64,000 nt of DNA from Sulfurovum sp. FS08-3. GTDB lineage: Bacteria > Campylobacterota > Campylobacteria > Campylobacterales > Sulfurovaceae. The position numbers were made by a program, and so were the translations under genes. Below are positions 36,798-46,500 of the stretch, in pieces (positions within the stretch are counted from its first letter, which is position 1; the number at the start of each line of letters is the position of its first letter). Location: positions 159,482 to 223,481 of the forward strand of contig JQIS01000001.1 in NCBI GenBank assembly GCA_000830175.1. Reading direction: 5' to 3'. A model generated the notes under the pieces. That model had not been told where the DNA came from. It did not search any database and saw only the letters and a list, made by a program, of their open reading frames with translations.

Positions 36798-38111
36798 ATG
36801 AAAAGAGTCCATTTTATTGGCATTGGGGGCATTGGGCTTTCGGCTTTGGCAAAGTTTCTCTACGGTCAAGGCTACAAAATCTCAGGTTCGGATATTCGCC
36901 AAAGTGAAATTACCAACGACCTTGCTACCAACTTTGGAGCTAAAATCACCATTCCTCATCACGAAGAGGCGATTAGTGACGCTATTGATATAGTTATCTA
37001 CTCCGCAGCCGTTCGCCCTACCAATGTGGAGTACAAACAAGCCAAAGCTTTGGGGATAGAGTTGCTTTCACGCAAAGAGGCACTGAAGTTTATTTTGGGC
37101 GACAAAGAGGTCTATGCGGTAGGTGGAGCGCATGGCAAAAGTACTACTTCGGCGATGTTGAGTGCTATATTGCCCGATGCCAATGCCCTTATTGGAGCTA
37201 TTAGCAAAGAGTTTGGCTCAAATGTACGAAGTGCTGCCAATAACAAAGTAGTCTTTGAAGCCGATGAGAGTGATGAGAGCTTTTTAAACTCCAATCCCTA
37301 TCTTGCTGTTGTTACCAATGTGGAGCTTGAACACATGGAGTACTACGAGTACGATGAGGAGCGTTTTTACAATGCCTACAGAGGTTTTATGGATTTGGCA
37401 AATGTGTGCGTAGTCAATGGCGATGATAGCTTTTTGGCTAGTGGCAAGGGTGTCAAACTCTATCCTCAGCACGACATCCAATCCATTGAGTATCTGCTTG
37501 TCAATGACGAACCCCATACTCGATTTGTTCTCAAAGAGTACGGTGCTTTTGAGGTCTTTGGCTTTGGGGAGCATATCGCTTTGGACGCTGCTTTGGCTAT
37601 TGAGGCTGCTGTGCAGTTGGGTCTTTCTATCGATACCATTCGCACCAATCTACGCAACTACAAAGGGATTAAAAAACGCTTTGATATTATCCAAAACGAG
37701 CCTAGTAGCGTCGTCATTGATGATTATGCCCATCATCCCACAGAGATAAAAGCGACACTTAAAGCTATCAAAGAGTACGCTAGACTCAAACAGATAGACA
37801 AAATCATCGCCATTTGGCAACCCCATAAATATACTCGCACCTTTGACAATCTCCACGCTTTTGTGGAGTCTTTTGCGGGGGTTGATGAGCTTGTGATTTT
37901 GCCTATTTGGAGTGCGGGAGAGTTGCCTTTGGAAATCGATCTCAAAGGGGCTTTTAGTCGCTACAACCCTATCATGGGCGAGAAGGTGACCAAAATCAAC
38001 GGAGTTGTCAAAGTACTCAAAGATAACCACACCCTCAAACACTACGACACAGGGCTAGTCGTAGCCTTCGGGGCGGGAGATATTACCTATCAAATCCGTG
38101 GGGAGCATTAA
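36798..38111 (+). CDS. murC: UDP-N-acetylmuramate-L-alanine ligase MurC
   Basis: A 437-residue Mur ligase. The N-terminal UDP-binding loop is IGIGGIGLSALA. The ATP loop is GAHGKSTTSAML (about 112-123). The central EADESDESF carries metal and substrate ligands, and the C-terminal domain has YAHHPTEIKATL. It adds L-alanine to UDP-MurNAc. The start follows a GGAG-containing site. It ends the dapC-like operon. Confidence 0.97.
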   Translation: MKRVHFIGIGGIGLSALAKFLYGQGYKISGSDIRQSEITNDLATNFGAKITIPHHEEAISDAIDIVIYSAAVRPTNVEYKQAKALGIELLSRKEALKFILGDKEVYAVGGAHGKSTTSAMLSAILPDANALIGAISKEFGSNVRSAANNKVVFEADESDESFLNSNPYLAVVTNVELEHMEYYEYDEERFYNAYRGFMDLANVCVVNGDDSFLASGKGVKLYPQHDIQSIEYLLVNDEPHTRFVLKEYGAFEVFGFGEHIALDAALAIEAAVQLGLSIDTIRTNLRNYKGIKKRFDIIQNEPSSVVIDDYAHHPTEIKATLKAIKEYARLKQIDKIIAIWQPHKYTRTFDNLHAFVESFAGVDELVILPIWSAGELPLEIDLKGAFSRYNPIMGEKVTKINGVVKVLKDNHTLKHYDTGLVVAFGAGDITYQIRGEH

Positions 38112-38658: not shown

Positions 38659-38667
38659 AACCTAAGT

Positions 38668-38841
38668 ACCGTATCACGAATCTCCACTTTTTCTTTTCTC
38701 CATCACAATTTTAGAAACAGCCAAACTACTAATCCTCTTGCAGGGTTTTGGCTTTTTCATCTCTTATGCCATACTCTGTTTTGATAGGTTTTTTATCGTT
38801 TGGTATTCATAGTATAGAAAAGTGGAAATTTATGATACGGT
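38668..38841. mobile_element. REP-associated transposase element remnant, left copy
   Basis: Bounded by imperfect inverted repeats of about 25 bases: it opens ACCGTATCACGAATCTCC and closes GGAAATTTATGATACGGT. About 150 bp are shared with the copy at 45861-46118 in the same orientation, with about 84 bp missing in the middle. The terminal base pair that differs between copies is changed in both arms (CCGTA/TACGG here, CCATA/TATGG there). The element has no intact gene. It lies upstream in map order of the type III restriction operon. Confidence 0.8.
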
Positions 38842-38927
38842 GATAATTTTTTGGTACTTGTTTCTCACGCCTTGCCTATCTATCCTTGATAGTATGTGTT
38901 TGAGACTAAGCCAAAATATCCCTGTCA

Positions 38928-41672
38928 TTATTTAATCAATTGCAACCCATCATATTTAGCTTTAAAACTAGCATTATGGGCTTCATTAAAGAACGGTAAA
39001 CCAATTAGTCTATAGCTTGGATTCTCTGCTTTTATGACATTATCAAATCCATATCTATCACTAATCTGCTCTAAAAACTCTTCTTTCCATCCCTCTTTAC
39101 CAGTTTTAAATGTTCCATCTTCACCTTTAAACTCATTACCTTTAGGCTCTATGAATACTTGGTATTGTAAACTATTTTTACCTTTTAAAAACAGGATAAA
39201 GTCAGGTTGAAAACCTCTACCTTTTTTAAAGTCATAAATTTTGTAAACTTCCTCATTTCTTAATAAATAAACTTCATCATGTTTAGTCTCTAGATTACCT
39301 ACTGTTGACTTTATAAAGCTTATAAGTCCTTTCTCCTCACTTGTACCATAAAAAGAGTCCAATATATACCATTTTTCATCTTCCAGCTCTTTAGCAATTC
39401 TATCTGAGTCAGAATCCTCTTTCACTGTTTTTGTTTTTGCTTCTGAGAAGAATTCTTTGAATGACCCTGGTATAAAATCACTACCTTTATTTGGATGGAT
39501 ATTATCTTTCAATTCAGCAAAGATTTTCTCTAAAAATTTTAATGTGATATTTAGTTTATCATCATTAGAGATATCATCATAGCTCATAGTTTTATTCACT
39601 ACGATATTAACTTTGAAAGCCCCCAATATTTCGTCTTTTTGTAAGTCTTCTATACTTTCAATTTCAAGCTCATCTTTGAGCTTATCAAATTGATAAAGTG
39701 AAGCTTCTTGTTTGGCTTTGATATTGATAGCTTTTCTAAAGATATGCTTCTCTATATCTTTAAACCTCTTCTCAATGGTATGTAAACCTTTTTCTTGTAA
39801 ATTTAACCGTTCTATATCTTCTTCATTACCAAAATCAATTTCTTGTTCAGATATTTCCAAACCTTTAATTTTATATGGTACTACAAAATCTTCTTTTAAA
39901 TCATTTAGTGTTTTCTTTTTTCTAGTAGGATTATCTATTTTTTTGTTATACCAAACTATTGTATTATTATAAAAATCAGTCTCTTCAAACCCTTGTTTTA
40001 ATTTAAAAGTTTTAACAATTTTATCATCTCTTACATATCCATCTTTTCTCAACTCTTCTTTTAAATGCGAGATATACCTTGACTCTTCATCATAGGTATA
40101 GTAGTAAAGCTCTTCTAGCACCCTAAGTTCATTCTTTAGGTCTTCATCAAATTTTCTTTTATTTTTAATTTTATCGTTATATACAAACGGAAAGTATCTT
40201 ACTCCTCTACCAATAAGTTGTTTCTCTTTTGTTGTTGCTTCAGGAGTTTTCTTTGTACTACCCCCTGCATTTTGTCCTTGATAAAGTCTTACTATATCAA
40301 AGAGATTCAGTACATCCCATCCCTCAGTAAGTCTATCAACGGTGAATATAGCTCTTATATGATTGTTTTTATCTTCAAGGCTATTGAGTAGTTTTTCTTG
40401 ATCCTCTGTTGTTTTTTCTGTCTTTGTTGTGTTGGTTTTAGAATTGGTAATGATGACATTCTTTTCTCCAAACCTACTTTTTATAAACTCAGCTATTTCA
40501 CCATAATGAATATCTTCAGTTTCGATAAAATTCAATACCTGCTCAGTTCTTGATCTTCCTTGCTCATGCACACTTTTTGTTTGAGATATTTTGTCTGAGA
40601 TAGTTATCAAAAAATCAAAATCACTAGCAGAGATATTTTCAGTCCAGTTCATAAACTCTTCATAGTCCATATTGGATTCTTCTATTGTTTTACTTCTAAA
40701 AAGTATAACGGGCTTGAAGTTGGCTATATTATTTCTCAATGCTATTTTGTGTCTATACCAGTTGAAGAGTAATGCTTGCAGGATTCTCTCTTTCTTTTGC
40801 AAAGTAGAAGAGATAAGATTTATCTCTTTGGTATATCCAGCTTCCAAAAACTCTTTGAGACCAAATTTATAGATAATCTTGTCTTCATACTTTTTGGCTA
40901 CCTCTTCATTGGCAGGGATAGTGGCTGTAAACTCTAATAATACATTTTTATTATCTTTTTTTGAACCATTCTTATTTAAGATAAGTTCAATAACTGTATG
41001 CTCCCAACCCTTTTTTTCTACAACATCAGCACCACCTTTTAACTCTTCTTCAAACATCTCTTTTTGAATTGTTATGTTCTTGGTGTTTGCATTGAGGTGA
41101 TGGGCTTCATCTGCAAGCATGACAATATCTTTTGAATGCAAGTCATCCAAAGTCGTTTGGTTTTCTCTCTCTATATGAATGTCGTTGTATAGCTTTTGAA
41201 TGGTCGTAAATTTAATCTCTATGCCTTGTGGATTATCACTAAAAGTCTCTACTTTTTTGATATTTACCGTTTTATCATCGATAACGATTTTATCTTTATA
41301 AAGATACTTTGTATGCGTAGAGTCGATGAAGTTATTTTCTGTTTTATCTACGATATTATTTTGATTTACAAAGAAGATAAAGTGCCTATATCCTTTGTTG
41401 TAATAGTAAAGAATAGTAGAAGCCATAAGTAGGGTTTTACCTGTACCTGTAGCCAAATTAAACATAAGATGAGTAGGTCTTTTTTGAAGTTTTGATTTTG
41501 GATTTTCATAAAATAAGAAATTTTCAAAAGCTTCTTTTTGCCAATCAAAAAGGTCATATTTCAAATTACTTGAAATATAGTTTGGTATTTCAAACACTTC
41601 AGGATTAAAGCTTTTTAAGGCTTCTTTTTGAGTGTTGATAGTGTCATATAGGTATTTAATAGTCATTCCCAT
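38928..41672 (-). CDS. res: type III restriction enzyme, Res subunit
   Basis: A 914-residue helicase-nuclease. Walker A ATGTGKT at about 74-80, DEAH box in ADEAHHLNA, helicase motif VI-like IGRGVRYFPF, and a C-terminal PD-(D/E)xK site (QPDFILFLKG...FIEPKG). Type III Res needs Mod and two inversely oriented sites to cut DNA. Start ATG 41672 or the ATG two codons later. Only 5 bases separate it from the GHKL gene. It looks intact. Confidence 0.94.
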   Translation of the reverse strand: MGMTIKYLYDTINTQKEALKSFNPEVFEIPNYISSNLKYDLFDWQKEAFENFLFYENPKSKLQKRPTHLMFNLATGTGKTLLMASTILYYYNKGYRHFIFFVNQNNIVDKTENNFIDSTHTKYLYKDKIVIDDKTVNIKKVETFSDNPQGIEIKFTTIQKLYNDIHIERENQTTLDDLHSKDIVMLADEAHHLNANTKNITIQKEMFEEELKGGADVVEKKGWEHTVIELILNKNGSKKDNKNVLLEFTATIPANEEVAKKYEDKIIYKFGLKEFLEAGYTKEINLISSTLQKKERILQALLFNWYRHKIALRNNIANFKPVILFRSKTIEESNMDYEEFMNWTENISASDFDFLITISDKISQTKSVHEQGRSRTEQVLNFIETEDIHYGEIAEFIKSRFGEKNVIITNSKTNTTKTEKTTEDQEKLLNSLEDKNNHIRAIFTVDRLTEGWDVLNLFDIVRLYQGQNAGGSTKKTPEATTKEKQLIGRGVRYFPFVYNDKIKNKRKFDEDLKNELRVLEELYYYTYDEESRYISHLKEELRKDGYVRDDKIVKTFKLKQGFEETDFYNNTIVWYNKKIDNPTRKKKTLNDLKEDFVVPYKIKGLEISEQEIDFGNEEDIERLNLQEKGLHTIEKRFKDIEKHIFRKAINIKAKQEASLYQFDKLKDELEIESIEDLQKDEILGAFKVNIVVNKTMSYDDISNDDKLNITLKFLEKIFAELKDNIHPNKGSDFIPGSFKEFFSEAKTKTVKEDSDSDRIAKELEDEKWYILDSFYGTSEEKGLISFIKSTVGNLETKHDEVYLLRNEEVYKIYDFKKGRGFQPDFILFLKGKNSLQYQVFIEPKGNEFKGEDGTFKTGKEGWKEEFLEQISDRYGFDNVIKAENPSYRLIGLPFFNEAHNASFKAKYDGLQLIK

Positions 41673-41677
41673 AAATA

Positions 41678-43624
41678 TTACTTTATAATTTCATGTACAA
41701 TTGTATCAACATTATTTTCACTAGATTTCTTTGCTTGTATTTGTAATTTATCTTTTAAGTATTTCATTTTTGTTCCCCATTCAACTTCTAAAACATCTGA
41801 CCATTTACGAACATAAATTTTAACTTTTCCATTATTAAAATTAAACGCAAGTCCTCTTTCTATTTCTCCATAGTTCTTTTGTGAGTCAATTTTTCTTTCT
41901 ATATGTTCATCAAAGTCTTTCCCAATTAAACAAAATTCCCAATATTGGTTCGGGCTATTACATAAAGATTGTTTCAGTATTGCTTCCATATAGCCTTCAA
42001 TTTGGTCATATTCTTTTTTTCCAAGTTTTATTGATGCTCTTTTAATTTCAACCACAATATTTTTTTGAATTTTCTCTCCTAGAGGTTCTGTTTTTGTTAA
42101 AAATAAATCAACTTCACCATTAGGTTGTGTTTCTAATTCAGGATCATCTATAGCCAATATTTTTTTTGCATATTCTGTTAAAACATTTTTCAAAGCTCCC
42201 TCTGTTGAGCTAAATAATCTAAATTGTTCTCCAAAAAGCCAAAAGTTTTCATTTAATATTTTTTGAATATGTTTTACTTCTAGAGTTTCTTTTTCATGTT
42301 CTGAAATTAGAATTTTAAGTTTATTTAAAACTTCTAATCTATGATCAATTTCTTTAGTAGTTTTTATTATATTTGATAATGAAGTTCTATTGAGAATATC
42401 CAATAAGTCATGTTTTTCTTCATCTGTAAGTTCTTGTAATTGTTCTAAGATAGTCTTGATTAATATATCATCTTGATTTGAAAGTAGTCCTGCAAAAGTA
42501 GCACATATAAACTTTATTTCTGGATCACTTTTACCTACAAAAAGTGATGGGGTAATTGTATAAATTGTCTTTAGTAAATCATCATAAGAGTCCTCATCAT
42601 ATATTCCAAAGTTTGAAAGATTTGGTATTAAATGATCTTTCTTGAGTTTTTTTAATAAATAATCTGACTGTTCTATAAGGTATGGCTTTCTTAATTTTAT
42701 TAATTCTTCTTTTATTTTTTGGATAATTTGTTTTTTTATTCTTGTAATTTCTTTATCACTAAAATCAAAAGTCTGTTGTTCTGTATTTTCTTCGTTAATA
42801 TCTTCAGGAGACTCAAAGAGTTTTGACTTTATATATACAGAATGCCAAAAATCATCTCTTTTTTTATTTAAACCAGTATTTTGTTTAAAAATTTCTACAC
42901 TTTTATCATTTAGAAAATAATACTTTGAAAATTCTGTAGGCTTTTGTTCCCATAAAATGATTCTTATTTCAAACTGTTCATCTAATTTTTTTTGAATATC
43001 TTCTGAAAAGAAGTTTTTATCTAAAGTTTTAATATTCTTTATATTTTTAGCTATATCTACTGCTTCGCCATTTATAAAAATTTTATAGTTTGTATTTTCT
43101 TCTAGGAACCAACCAAAATTTATTAATATTTCCTTATGTAAATTATCTACAGATAACAATATTGATGAGAAGTTTTCTTTTATGTTAATAAAGTTTATCT
43201 GTGTTCCTATATTATCGAACACTACATTTTCTTTCTTGATGACTGTGTCATGTTGTAAAGTTAATTTTTTCTTTTTGCTAAAAACTTCAATTTGCCCAGC
43301 AATCCAAATAAAAGCATACCTGCCTCTTCCAAGTTTTCCTTTAGGGAGAGTTTTATTTGCTACTGATTTTTTAGTAGAAGATATAAAATTATTTGTAACA
43401 GCATTATCATCAAAATCCCACCCCTTACCATTATCAACAATTTGTACATTTTTTACATAACCTATTCCCTCAGGAGGAAGCTCAAAATTTATTTTTACTT
43501 CATTTGCTCCCGCATCAAAAGAATTCCATATGTACTCAAAGAGACACTTATATGGTTTATCCTTATATAGCTTGAGTTCAGTTTTTATGGACTGTTCATT
43601 GATTTTTAATTCTGACTTAACCAT
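41678..43624 (-). CDS. GHKL (MutL/MORC-like) ATPase fused to a PD-(D/E)xK nuclease-like domain
   Basis: A 648-residue protein encoded between mod and res. The N-terminal Bergerat ATP fold has the N-box E30-x3-N34-x2-D37 (EYIWNSFDAGA), G1 DNGKG (D64) and G2 KLGRGRYAF (about 97-105). The middle region (about 200-470) is helical. The C-terminal ~170 residues carry D506 in GEVDLFL and E526-x-K528 in VVEIKR, a PD-(D/E)xK site of the DUF4263 (Shedu C-terminal) type. MORC/MutL-like ATPases are known in prokaryotic restriction loci. The role here is not established; an ATP-gated accessory nuclease is the simplest inference. Gaps to mod and res are 6 and 5 bases. Confidence 0.82.
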   Translation of the reverse strand: MVKSELKINEQSIKTELKLYKDKPYKCLFEYIWNSFDAGANEVKINFELPPEGIGYVKNVQIVDNGKGWDFDDNAVTNNFISSTKKSVANKTLPKGKLGRGRYAFIWIAGQIEVFSKKKKLTLQHDTVIKKENVVFDNIGTQINFINIKENFSSILLSVDNLHKEILINFGWFLEENTNYKIFINGEAVDIAKNIKNIKTLDKNFFSEDIQKKLDEQFEIRIILWEQKPTEFSKYYFLNDKSVEIFKQNTGLNKKRDDFWHSVYIKSKLFESPEDINEENTEQQTFDFSDKEITRIKKQIIQKIKEELIKLRKPYLIEQSDYLLKKLKKDHLIPNLSNFGIYDEDSYDDLLKTIYTITPSLFVGKSDPEIKFICATFAGLLSNQDDILIKTILEQLQELTDEEKHDLLDILNRTSLSNIIKTTKEIDHRLEVLNKLKILISEHEKETLEVKHIQKILNENFWLFGEQFRLFSSTEGALKNVLTEYAKKILAIDDPELETQPNGEVDLFLTKTEPLGEKIQKNIVVEIKRASIKLGKKEYDQIEGYMEAILKQSLCNSPNQYWEFCLIGKDFDEHIERKIDSQKNYGEIERGLAFNFNNGKVKIYVRKWSDVLEVEWGTKMKYLKDKLQIQAKKSSENNVDTIVHEIIK

Positions 43625-43630
43625 AAGATA

Positions 43631-45727
43631 CTACTTTTCATTATAAAATTGATTTGTTGACTTCTGATCCTCTTCACTAATACCAAACCTCTTATCTTCC
43701 ATTTCACTTTTTTGAACATACATTTGGTTTAAATCAAGCATAGTCAAAAACATTCTTTTTTGCTCCTCCAAAGATAAAGCTTTAAATTCATCTTCGTTGA
43801 TAACTTTGTCTTTAAACTCTTTGATTTTTAAATTATAGTTCAAAAAGTATTTTTCATATAGAGTATCAAATAGTTTTACTAAATCATCCAAGCTTTTACA
43901 AGTATTTATCTCTTCTTTGGCTTCTTCATTCCATTTAGCTAATTCAAAATAAATAAAGTCTCCTCCACCTTGCCAATTAACTGCTTTTGAAATACCTGTT
44001 GTATCTTTATTGATAACATTTTGAAGCCTAATAACACTATCATTATTATCATAATCAAGTTGTTCTATGCCAATATATTGTCTTCCCATTTTATGAGCAA
44101 CTGCACAAGTAGTACCGCTACCTAGGTGATAATCAAGAACTAGATCATTTTCTTCTGTAGAGAGTTCAATAATTCTTTTTAATAACAATTCAGGTTTTTT
44201 ACCATTCTTTAGTGTCACACTACCTTCATTTGCAATTCCAGTAAAACTAATATCAGTCCAAACATCAGTTAAAGCTTGTGCTGGAACATAATTCCCGTCA
44301 ATATTTTTAAAATTATTCCCCCAAAATACAATCATTTCTCCATTCAAAATATAAAAATTCTCAATATCCTCATTCGGATGTTGCATAACAACACCTTTAT
44401 TTTTTTTAGATTCCAACACAGTTTTATTTCTCTTTATTAATGCTCCACCACCTACTGCAGCGGTTCTGAAAACTTGATTTTTATTTTTAAATGCAAACTC
44501 AGAAAGTTTTTCATTAATAACAGTTTTAGAAAAATCCTTTTTAAAATCATCAGCACTTTTATACCCTTCATTTTCTGAAAGGACTTCAATTAGTGATTTA
44601 TATTTCCACTTAGAAAAATCATCTTCAGGATTTATTAAATAAAATTTGTATGCACTATCATAATCCTTTTGTATATAAATTTTATTAAGCTTATTTTTTA
44701 AACTATCTTTACCATAAATATAAATGTGATTTGCTGTTGAAAATATTTTTGCACTGGTAGCTTTAAATCCAGAAGGAGCATTTGTAGTCATTGTAATATG
44801 ATTAAGATAATTATCTCTTCTAAATATTTCATCTAATAAAACTTGCATATAAGAAGCTTCCTCATTCCCAACATGGACTACAATAACACCATTATCCCTT
44901 AAAAGCTCTTTGGCTACCTCTAAACGATTTTTCATAAAAGTCAACCAAGTTGAATGATTAAATGAGTCATTATATTTGAACTCATCTTTTCCTGTATTAA
45001 ATGGTGGATCAATATAAATGAGTTTCACTTTCCTTGCAAACTGGCTCTTCAGACCATGCAACACTAAAAGGTTGTTACCTTTAATAATTAAATTTTCTTT
45101 AATTGTTCCATCTTCATCCCTTTTTATATTTCCAACACTAACTTCACCATCTTTTGTATATCTCTTCCAGTTTACAAGAGCTTTTTCATCAAAAAGTCTA
45201 TCTATCTCATCGTGAGCTAATACTTGATTAAAAAATATCTCTTTTCTTTTGGTTTGCTTTTCCTTATATCCTGCTTCTTCTGTTATCTTTTCACCTTTGA
45301 CAGTCTTAGTTTTCTCTTCTTCGTATTCAAAATAGGTATCCATTCCTTCTTCGCTACTTTGTCCACCCTCAAGCACACAATCCTTATAAGGAAAGTCCAA
45401 CACCACATCATTGGTATCTTTGAGAAATCTTTTACCATCGGTTAAACCGATACGGTTTTTATAAGCAGTGTAAGAGTTGTTAATCTTGTTCTCTTCCATG
45501 AAGAATTTAAAATTATTCATCTTGAAAACATAAGCATCTTTGATCTTCACAAAAAACTTATCTCTCAAAGACTCCTCCTGAAGCAACAGACCAATCACTG
45601 CTTCATCAATCTGCTCTACCAAATCCAAAAGAAGAGTCTGATTTAACTCTGTTTGCTCTTCATTCCAAAGTCTTTTATCTTGTTTTAAAATTTCTAAAAT
45701 TTTGTTTTTTATTTGTGTGTTTTCCAT
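43631..45727 (-). CDS. mod: type III DNA methyltransferase, Mod subunit
   Basis: A 698-residue N6-adenine methylase of the beta class: catalytic motif IV DPPFNTG at 240-246 comes before the SAM-binding FxGxG-like YHLGSGTT near 535. The central ~250 residues form the target-recognition domain. Mod methylates one strand of an asymmetric site and gives Res its specificity. No simple-sequence tract suited to phase variation is visible at the 5' end, unlike many epsilonproteobacterial mod genes. It is the first gene of the three-gene operon. Confidence 0.94.
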   Translation of the reverse strand: MENTQIKNKILEILKQDKRLWNEEQTELNQTLLLDLVEQIDEAVIGLLLQEESLRDKFFVKIKDAYVFKMNNFKFFMEENKINNSYTAYKNRIGLTDGKRFLKDTNDVVLDFPYKDCVLEGGQSSEEGMDTYFEYEEEKTKTVKGEKITEEAGYKEKQTKRKEIFFNQVLAHDEIDRLFDEKALVNWKRYTKDGEVSVGNIKRDEDGTIKENLIIKGNNLLVLHGLKSQFARKVKLIYIDPPFNTGKDEFKYNDSFNHSTWLTFMKNRLEVAKELLRDNGVIVVHVGNEEASYMQVLLDEIFRRDNYLNHITMTTNAPSGFKATSAKIFSTANHIYIYGKDSLKNKLNKIYIQKDYDSAYKFYLINPEDDFSKWKYKSLIEVLSENEGYKSADDFKKDFSKTVINEKLSEFAFKNKNQVFRTAAVGGGALIKRNKTVLESKKNKGVVMQHPNEDIENFYILNGEMIVFWGNNFKNIDGNYVPAQALTDVWTDISFTGIANEGSVTLKNGKKPELLLKRIIELSTEENDLVLDYHLGSGTTCAVAHKMGRQYIGIEQLDYDNNDSVIRLQNVINKDTTGISKAVNWQGGGDFIYFELAKWNEEAKEEINTCKSLDDLVKLFDTLYEKYFLNYNLKIKEFKDKVINEDEFKALSLEEQKRMFLTMLDLNQMYVQKSEMEDKRFGISEEDQKSTNQFYNEK

Positions 45728-45860
45728 ACTCTAAACCATAAGAATTAAATTATTTTTATTGTATCGATAAAAGGACTAAAAGCAATTTAATATTTGTTTT
45801 ATTTATAGATTAGATTAAATTAAAAGATAATCTATCTCTTGAAATTATTTTTTTCAAAAT

Positions 45861-46118
45861 AAGCACCATATCACAAATCTCCACTTTTTCTTTTCTCTAT
45901 CACAATTTTAGAAACAGCTGAGCTATTTGGCTTTGTCTATAACCATCTTCCATAGCAATGATTATAACATTATTACGTTGTACTTTGGTTTTTGATTTGT
46001 TAAAATGCTCTTGCAGGGTTTTGGCTTTTTCATCTCTTATGCCATACTCTGTTTTGATAGGTTTTTTTATCACTTGGTATGATAGCATAGAAAAGTGGAA
46101 ATTTATGATATGGTGCTT
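45861..46118. mobile_element. REP-associated transposase element remnant, right copy
   Basis: Inverted ends AAGCACCATATCACAAATC and GATTTATGATATGGTGCTT-like (45861 onward and up to 46118) enclose 258 bp. It shares two blocks with the element at 38668-38841 and contains the end of a transposase gene. It ends 4 bases from the stop of the toxin remnant. With the left copy it forms direct repeats around the type III operon, about 7.0 kb apart. The stretch 45728-45860 is AT-rich and holds no gene. Confidence 0.8.
45900..46088 (-). pseudogene. C-terminal fragment of a REP-associated (Y1-type) transposase
   Basis: A 62-codon frame. EDGYRQSQIAQLF is the start of the C-terminal helix-turn-helix of this transposase family; the family normally continues with LGLS and a recognition helix, but here the frame ends at LKL. 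The Y1 catalytic domain is missing. It lies inside the right inverted-repeat element. Only a remnant. Confidence 0.65.
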
Positions 46119-46121
46119 ATT

Positions 46122-46258
46122 TTATAATGGTTTATTTTTATTAAAGATTCTTAAAATTTCTATCTCTTTTTTCATTGGTCTTATTCTGTATATTATCGTA
46201 TAGCCTTCATGAATCATGTCTCTAATATTTTTATCATTAAAATATATTGATTCATTAT
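46122..46258 (-). pseudogene. truncated RelE/ParE-family toxin
   Basis: Directly after the antitoxin, one frame reads NESIYFNDKNIRDMIHEGY then TIIYRIRPMKKEIEILRIF and ends at TAA 46124-46122. This is the C-terminal half of a ParE/RelE toxin (the R-x-M/L-I-x-x-GY-x-I/I-Y-R-I core). It has no start codon before this part and the first ~45 residues are absent, so the gene is decapitated. The transposase-related element begins 3-4 bases beyond its stop. Confidence 0.72.
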
Positions 46259-46500
46259 TTTTGCAATGACGCTGTAAAAGTATCTATATCATTCCAAAAA
46301 TTTTCATTGCTTATCATTTGAACATTGCCATTATCAATCTCTTCTATATCTTGTTGAAGTTGTTTTTGTCTTTCATAAAAATATGGGTCATGCTCCAATT
46401 TTTTATCTTTTTGAAGTTGAACTTTATCTTTATAGTGTTCAAGTATTGTCAAAAAATCTTGTACAAAGTTATCTTGAATATTTACTGTTAATGTTTGCAT
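46255..46500 (-). CDS. antitoxin-like protein (partner of a RelE/ParE toxin)
   Basis: An 81-residue protein. The N-terminal strand (QTLTVNIQDNF) suits a ribbon-helix-helix DNA-binding domain, and the rest is a charged helix that would wrap the toxin. Size, composition and position directly before a ParE/RelE remnant support an antitoxin. Its own frame is intact while the toxin gene is truncated, so it is probably an orphan. Confidence 0.65.
   Translation of the reverse strand: MQTLTVNIQDNFVQDFLTILEHYKDKVQLQKDKKLEHDPYFYERQKQLQQDIEEIDNGNVQMISNENFWNDIDTFTASLQK

Follow-up and report, generated by a model that had tools for sequence, protein, structure and literature searches.

Why does a type III restriction operon carry a gene for an ATPase-nuclease fusion between its modification and restriction genes? 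The operon lies in a stretch of 64,000 nucleotides from Sulfurovum sp. FS08-3 (contig JQIS01000001.1), here called the window. The question is a general one for genes embedded in RM operons, which may be independent defence genes that are co-carried or may be functionally coupled to their hosts.

The gene between mod and res

The gene in question, here called X, is an uninterrupted ORF of 648 aa in the ORF reading of the window (41678..43624, minus strand). It encodes a GHKL ATPase / PD-(D/E)xK nuclease fusion that can be described as paraMORC3-like or as a GHKL-type Shedu protein. As the sequence-only reading had described, mod, a type III DNA methyltransferase gene (698 aa; 43631..45727, minus strand), lies upstream with a gap of 6 bases, and res, a type III restriction helicase-nuclease gene (914 aa; 38928..41672, minus strand), lies downstream with a gap of 5 bases. 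Mod matched N6_N4_Mtase (1e-39) and TypeIII_RM_meth (9e-15) in Pfam and MTase_III (4e-222) in PADLOC. Res matched ResIII (7e-27) in Pfam and REase_III in PADLOC (2e-108 over residues 4-903), and the PADLOC type III models cover nearly the full length of both proteins. With mod and res in one operon, both complete and in the usual order, this is a type III RM system. The gaps of 5-6 bases imply tight co-expression of X with mod and res, and X would be co-transcribed with the RM operon. Operon context was taken from ORFs and HMMs, for the window and for relatives alike.

The N-terminal end of X is a GHKL ATPase core (residues 27-134; 43223..43546, minus strand), assigned from Pfam, Foldseek and invariant residues. 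The single X sequence matched HATPase_c_3 in Pfam over these residues with E=4.1e-13. The N-box (E30/N34) and the G1 (D64-x-G66-x-G68) and G2 (G99-x-G101-R102) motifs are intact, as had been claimed, and E30, N34, D64, G66, G68, G99, G101 and R102 are unchanged in 75/75 homologues. A PDB search with the profile of the 75 homologues found Mlh1, PMS1, topo VI B and MutL (best 4e-7), with the similarity to MutL/MORC/Hsp90-type GHKL ATPases confined to the N-terminal domain; the single X sequence gave chance-level PDB matches only. The top Foldseek folds for the AlphaFold2 model of full-length X (pLDDT 82.8) were TRAP1/Hsp90 and MutL, and this full-length search, dominated by Hsp90/MutL, was uninformative on the nuclease. 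X was not given the eukaryotic label 'MORC', since MORC3 itself matches only weakly (E about 0.05).

The ATPase core is followed by an alpha+beta, S5-like transducer region at about residues 160-266 (42827..43147, minus strand), delimited from AlphaFold2 secondary structure and Foldseek. Foldseek aligned X to 333 columns of MutL 1b63 (ATPase plus S5) with a probability of 1.00 but low TM-scores (0.24/0.41), and the S5-like assignment is therefore approximate. The helical middle proposed earlier appears in the model as helices at residues 288-329, 344-357 and 367-441, and this region may serve as a clamp arm (residues 288-441; 42302..42763, minus strand).

The C-terminal end is a PD-(D/E)xK nuclease domain at about residues 446-632 (41729..42289, minus strand), marked by E449, D506, E526, K528 and Q541. 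E449, E466, D506, E526-x-K528 and Q541 are unchanged in 75/75 homologues. The invariance of the ATPase and nuclease motifs is far beyond chance, and these motifs, invariant across 75 homologues, rule out X as a chance ORF. The AlphaFold2 model of the C-terminal 280 aa (pLDDT 88, pTM 0.83) had NucS, EcoRI, FokI, McrC, AF1548 and MspJI as its nearest PDB folds. Each of these matches is weak (E 0.009-0.05) and they are consistent, nearly all of the best being PD-(D/E)xK enzymes. The proposed D506/E526-K528 site thus stands, in a domain modelled like restriction-endonuclease folds. In Pfam, the X C-terminus also matched HSDR_N_2 with E=4e-4, below the curated cut-off.

The assignment of this nuclease to the Shedu C-terminal type held at the level of the family, and the single sequence fell short of it. 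In hhalign, 167 columns of the C-terminal profile aligned to SduA C-termini (E=1.1e-6, score 52.7). The controls scored lower: at most 14.8 for 20 column-shuffled profiles, 26.1 for the HsdR N-terminus and 14.7 for the type III Res C-terminus. This alignment succeeded with a gathered set of SduA proteins; against one lone SduA sequence hhalign gave no alignment. The single X sequence had no match to Pfam SduA_C, and PADLOC SduA reached it with E=0.038. Among the relatives, SduA_C matches 9/82 and one PADLOC SduA model matches 18/82. One further protein, L182, a 587-aa Bacteroidota protein (locus 110-1883), combines a GHKL with an SduA_C domain. It exceeds the SduA_C cut-off, has a match to the X-family profile at 1.4e-31 over both domains, and by sequence bridges the paraMORC3-like family and Shedu. 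Because it draws on the profile-profile result and on L182, with the single X sequence short of the curated model, the Shedu assignment of the X nuclease rests on family-level evidence. A plasmid search with Campylobacterota SduA gave no match.

Type III operons without X and relatives of X elsewhere

The sequence-only reading proposed a three-component type III system, taken here as a model with the ATPase clamp as an obligate subunit of the enzyme. Among 397 Campylobacterota genomes, a related Mod (E <= 1e-60) was found in 10 other genomes at 37-45% identity. In 8/10 of these Res lies directly downstream of Mod with nothing between; of the remaining two genomes, a Res-like stretch lies on the other side in one, and no Res was recognisable in the second. 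The closest mod-res pair found anywhere, in Neisseria gonorrhoeae (Mod 46%, Res 50%), is likewise adjacent and has no guest gene. The record that holds this pair, NZ_CP119140.1 (2.17 Mb), was filed in the plasmid collection and is probably a chromosome. The X gene itself was found in 1/397 Campylobacterota genomes in a single-sequence search (E <= 1e-10), and the X family in 1/99 nearer relatives with the family profile (E <= 1e-50). X is thus not kept between mod and res, and X as a conserved type III subunit was rejected, since 8/8 mod-res pairs of the phylum and the Neisseria pair lack it. These X-less type III comparisons, added here, are what separates the guest from its host operon.

Relatives of X were collected by a pattern search of 84,980 species genomes with a three-sequence alignment. 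It returned 237 relatives, and 80 of the loci were retained; the same scan with the single X protein, whose peptides are too specific, found no relatives. Six full-length relatives (L059 to L064) share 60-71% identity with X. The others are about 26-32% identical, apart from the fragment L112 (65% over 158 residues). None of the six accompanies type III genes. In a Parcubacteria genome (L059) the order is hsdM-X-hsdS-..-hsdR, and in two Bacteroidota (L060 and L061) it is hsdM-hsdS-X-..-hsdR, all type I operons. The relative in L062 is solitary. In two Rikenellaceae genomes (L063, 902-4135; L064, 2213-5446) the relative directly follows an XRE-HipA pair with a 12-base gap, which suggests that this pair is an alternative operon partner.

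An RM gene lies within five genes, as detected with HMMs built for the analysis, in 19/80 loci (18 on the same strand), and none does in the other 61/80; the 80 loci are the best-scoring pattern-search matches and not a random sample, so that 19/80 is not an unbiased frequency. The statement that MORC/MutL-like ATPases occur in prokaryotic restriction loci agrees with these neighbourhoods and with the paraMORC3 article (PMC2292703). The X relative is inside the RM operon in 8 loci (L059, L060, L061, L066, L069, L070, L081 and L089). One of these, L066 from Candidatus Uhrbacteria, has the type III order mod, X, a 167-aa ORF, a ThsA-macro protein and a Res with a RE_endonuc domain. Its X homologue is 31% identical to that of the window and its type III operon is unrelated, so L066 is a second, independent type III case of mod-X-...-res. 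In another locus (L075) the relative follows a split type III res. Another Campylobacterota genome (L046, 3099-15726) has a distinct, more distant GHKL protein of 598 aa between type I hsdS and hsdR, together with proteins of 973 aa and 448 aa between the same two genes. On plasmids, a relative directly follows a type ISP enzyme in Phaeobacter, and another lies near a C5-methyltransferase/LlaMI pair and Drt2 in Psychrobacter.

In L066 (11999-16166), the 167-aa ORF and the ThsA-macro protein are possibly a second, Thoeris-like guest nested in the RM operon.

The obligate-subunit model can draw on the gaps of 6 and 5 bases and on the homologue after mod in the independent operon of L066. That operon, however, holds other guests between mod and res, the closest relatives of X are found without type III genes, and the type III pairs closest to the one in the window do without X. 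We regard a true three-component enzyme as very unlikely.

A tree of 75 sequences indicated how often the association with RM genes has changed. The label 'near RM' takes 13 changes on this tree, of which supported branches force at least 10; for 'inside an RM operon' at least 6 are needed. The sister of the window X is the Parcubacterium type I copy (71% identity). New here are a clade that shifts between operons of type I and of type III in different phyla, and the second, independent type III case of L066. The X family appears to be drawn to RM operons more than a purely neutral guest would suggest.

Such an attraction would fit a back-up role in which the RM system provides the trigger that the GHKL-Shedu protein needs. 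As they translocate, type I/III enzymes leave linear DNA ends; the clamp would load on these ends or on collided complexes, and would then degrade the DNA further or fire once restriction is inhibited. The Shedu protein EcSduA senses and cleaves DNA ends, according to a review (PMC12904381), insertion between the M/S and R genes of translocating type I/III enzymes is recurrent, and Iyer et al. suggested that DNA is looped between the sites of recognition and cleavage (PMC2292703). Against such dependence, most of the sampled loci (61/80) lack an RM gene within five genes, and close relatives readily switch RM type and partner. In addition, VcSduA is active alone (PMC12137116), and TgvAB, although embedded in an RM operon, is independent of HsdR activity (PMC11411939). 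Coupling to the RM system is a possible explanation of the locus, though an unlikely one. Its broader form, that GHKL-Shedu nucleases are a general add-on of translocating type I/III enzymes, inserted between modification and restriction genes and sensing their DNA ends or stalled translocases, seems doubtful to us. If it were true, these would be two-stage operons in which the RM enzyme cuts first and the clamp-nuclease finishes the work or backs it up.

Mobility of the operon

The operon region has a GC content of 26-30%, and X itself 26%, vs 44-45% in the two nearest housekeeping-like genes. MITE-like copies bound the mod-X-res operon on both sides. The upstream element (45856..46123, plus strand) has 268 bases, 33-nt terminal inverted repeats and a short ORF (MLSYQVIKKPIKTEYGIRDEKAKTLQEHF...); the second copy lies downstream in the same orientation (38663..38850, plus strand). 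Further MITE-like copies, partial or diverged, are found elsewhere in the genome. Given the flanking copies and these additional ones, movement of the operon as a composite unit is possible. The operon is missing beside mpl (window 36798-38111) in a sibling genome of about 95% identity: there, mpl is directly followed by sequence that in the window lies beyond the operon (85% identical, inverted). The operon is therefore a variable island.

At 46122-46500 of the window, an 81-aa antitoxin-like ORF (46255-46500) is followed by about the last 31 residues of a RelE/ParE-like toxin, which end where the MITE begins. By eye, this appears to be a remnant of a toxin-antitoxin pair.

Relatives of X are also found on phages: one is carried by a Pasteurella phage, and 5 were found on viral contigs, where the single X protein gave no match. 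A phage-borne origin was rejected for X itself; no phage genes lie beside it in the window.

The distribution of the family bears on a further alternative, that X was recruited to DNA repair in the manner of MutL and has no part in defence. For its N-terminal profile the closest solved structures are Mlh1/PMS1/MutL and topo VI B, and a repair function was considered by Iyer et al. for the standalone forms (PMC2292703). The patchy distribution (1/99 relatives), the low GC, the phage cargo and neighbours that include Drt2, RM and HipA all count against a repair role, as does the phage defence given by VcSduA (PMC12137116). We consider repair very unlikely.

Proposed role and known systems

The explanation that we favour, and hold to be reasonably probable, is that X encodes a defence nuclease of the paraMORC3 / GHKL-type Shedu kind that spreads laterally, and sits as an autonomous guest cistron in a complete, otherwise ordinary type III operon. 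Observed features that enter into it are the domains, the intact catalytic residues, the fold, the operon position, the mobility and the independence from a particular RM type. The relatives at 60-71% identity, found alone, next to HipA or within type I operons, speak for an autonomous guest, as do the type III pairs that lack X, its rarity in the phylum, its low GC, the sibling genome without the operon, and the precedents of VcSduA and TgvAB. Counted against it are the 19/80 loci near RM genes (18 co-directional), the 8 inside an operon and the at least 6 changes on the tree, together with the Uhrbacteria type III mod-X-...-res order and the gaps of 5-6 bases. X, which moves between bacteria and settles in different kinds of RM operon, is therefore probably a defence gene carried along with the operon, not part of a new three-part system.

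As an autonomous guest, X would dimerise via its GHKL domains upon ATP binding, and the S5 region and helical arms would close round DNA as a clamp. ATP turnover would then permit cleavage of phage DNA by the PD-(D/E)xK domains fused at the C-terminus. By analogy with VcSduA, X would act alone; its autonomy in this host and its trigger are inferred. The RM operon would supply X with a promoter and a mobile vehicle, and Mod/Res would add a second, methylation-based layer of defence. The simplest reading is that X is probably a mobile effector of defence that suffices by itself, of a kind often carried in RM operons.

Compared with an ordinary type III RM system, the operon of the window has an extra cistron between Mod and Res, and related pairs lack one. 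X resembles MutL, MORC and Hsp90 in its GHKL ATPase motifs and fold and differs from them in being fused to a RE-fold nuclease. The idea that the protein itself was new did not survive comparison with the literature. GHKL plus S5 plus RE-fold fusions in RM operons were defined as paraMORC3 in 2008 (Iyer, Abhiman & Aravind, PMC2292703), and so the protein type of X was already known; a GHKL-DUF4263 Shedu protein was phage-tested in 2025. According to the 2008 article, paraMORC3 proteins carry a C-terminal RE-fold nuclease with E-D-ExK, occur in RM operons or standalone and are laterally mobile. X is like them, by the published description, in its GHKL domain, E-D-ExK nuclease, RM neighbourhood and lateral mobility, and its S5-like region may correspond to theirs. 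The order mod-paraMORC3-res, as at the X locus, is not named in the available part of the text (PMC2292703).

The phage-tested protein is VcSduA, a Shedu type I-D protein with GHKL and DUF4263 domains from Vibrio cholerae WASA (PMC12137116). It protects E. coli by itself, with the host surviving, and its E27A and K557A mutants lose phage defence, so that ATPase and nuclease residues are both needed (PMC12137116). X shares with VcSduA an N-terminal GHKL ATPase and a C-terminal Shedu-type PD-(D/E)xK domain in the same order. The N-box Glu is residue 27 in VcSduA and 30 in X, and the catalytic Lys is residue 557 in VcSduA and 528 in X; compared by residue positions, the two sites are 530 residues apart in VcSduA vs 498 in X. 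In its domain order and equivalent catalytic residues X fits the layout of Shedu type I-D, a Shedu nuclease that carries a GHKL regulatory domain at its N-terminus. The settings differ, with VcSduA in VSP-II next to GrwAB and X in an RM operon.

For its position, X is like TgvAB, defence genes inserted within the type I operon of V. cholerae VPI-2 that defend without HsdR activity (PMC11411939). Unlike X, TgvAB is a GmrSD-like type IV enzyme of an unrelated protein family. The X locus connects a genomic prediction made 18 years ago, that of paraMORC3 in RM loci, and the phage-tested VcSduA with one recurrent operon pattern, in which a GHKL clamp-nuclease is lodged between modification and restriction genes.
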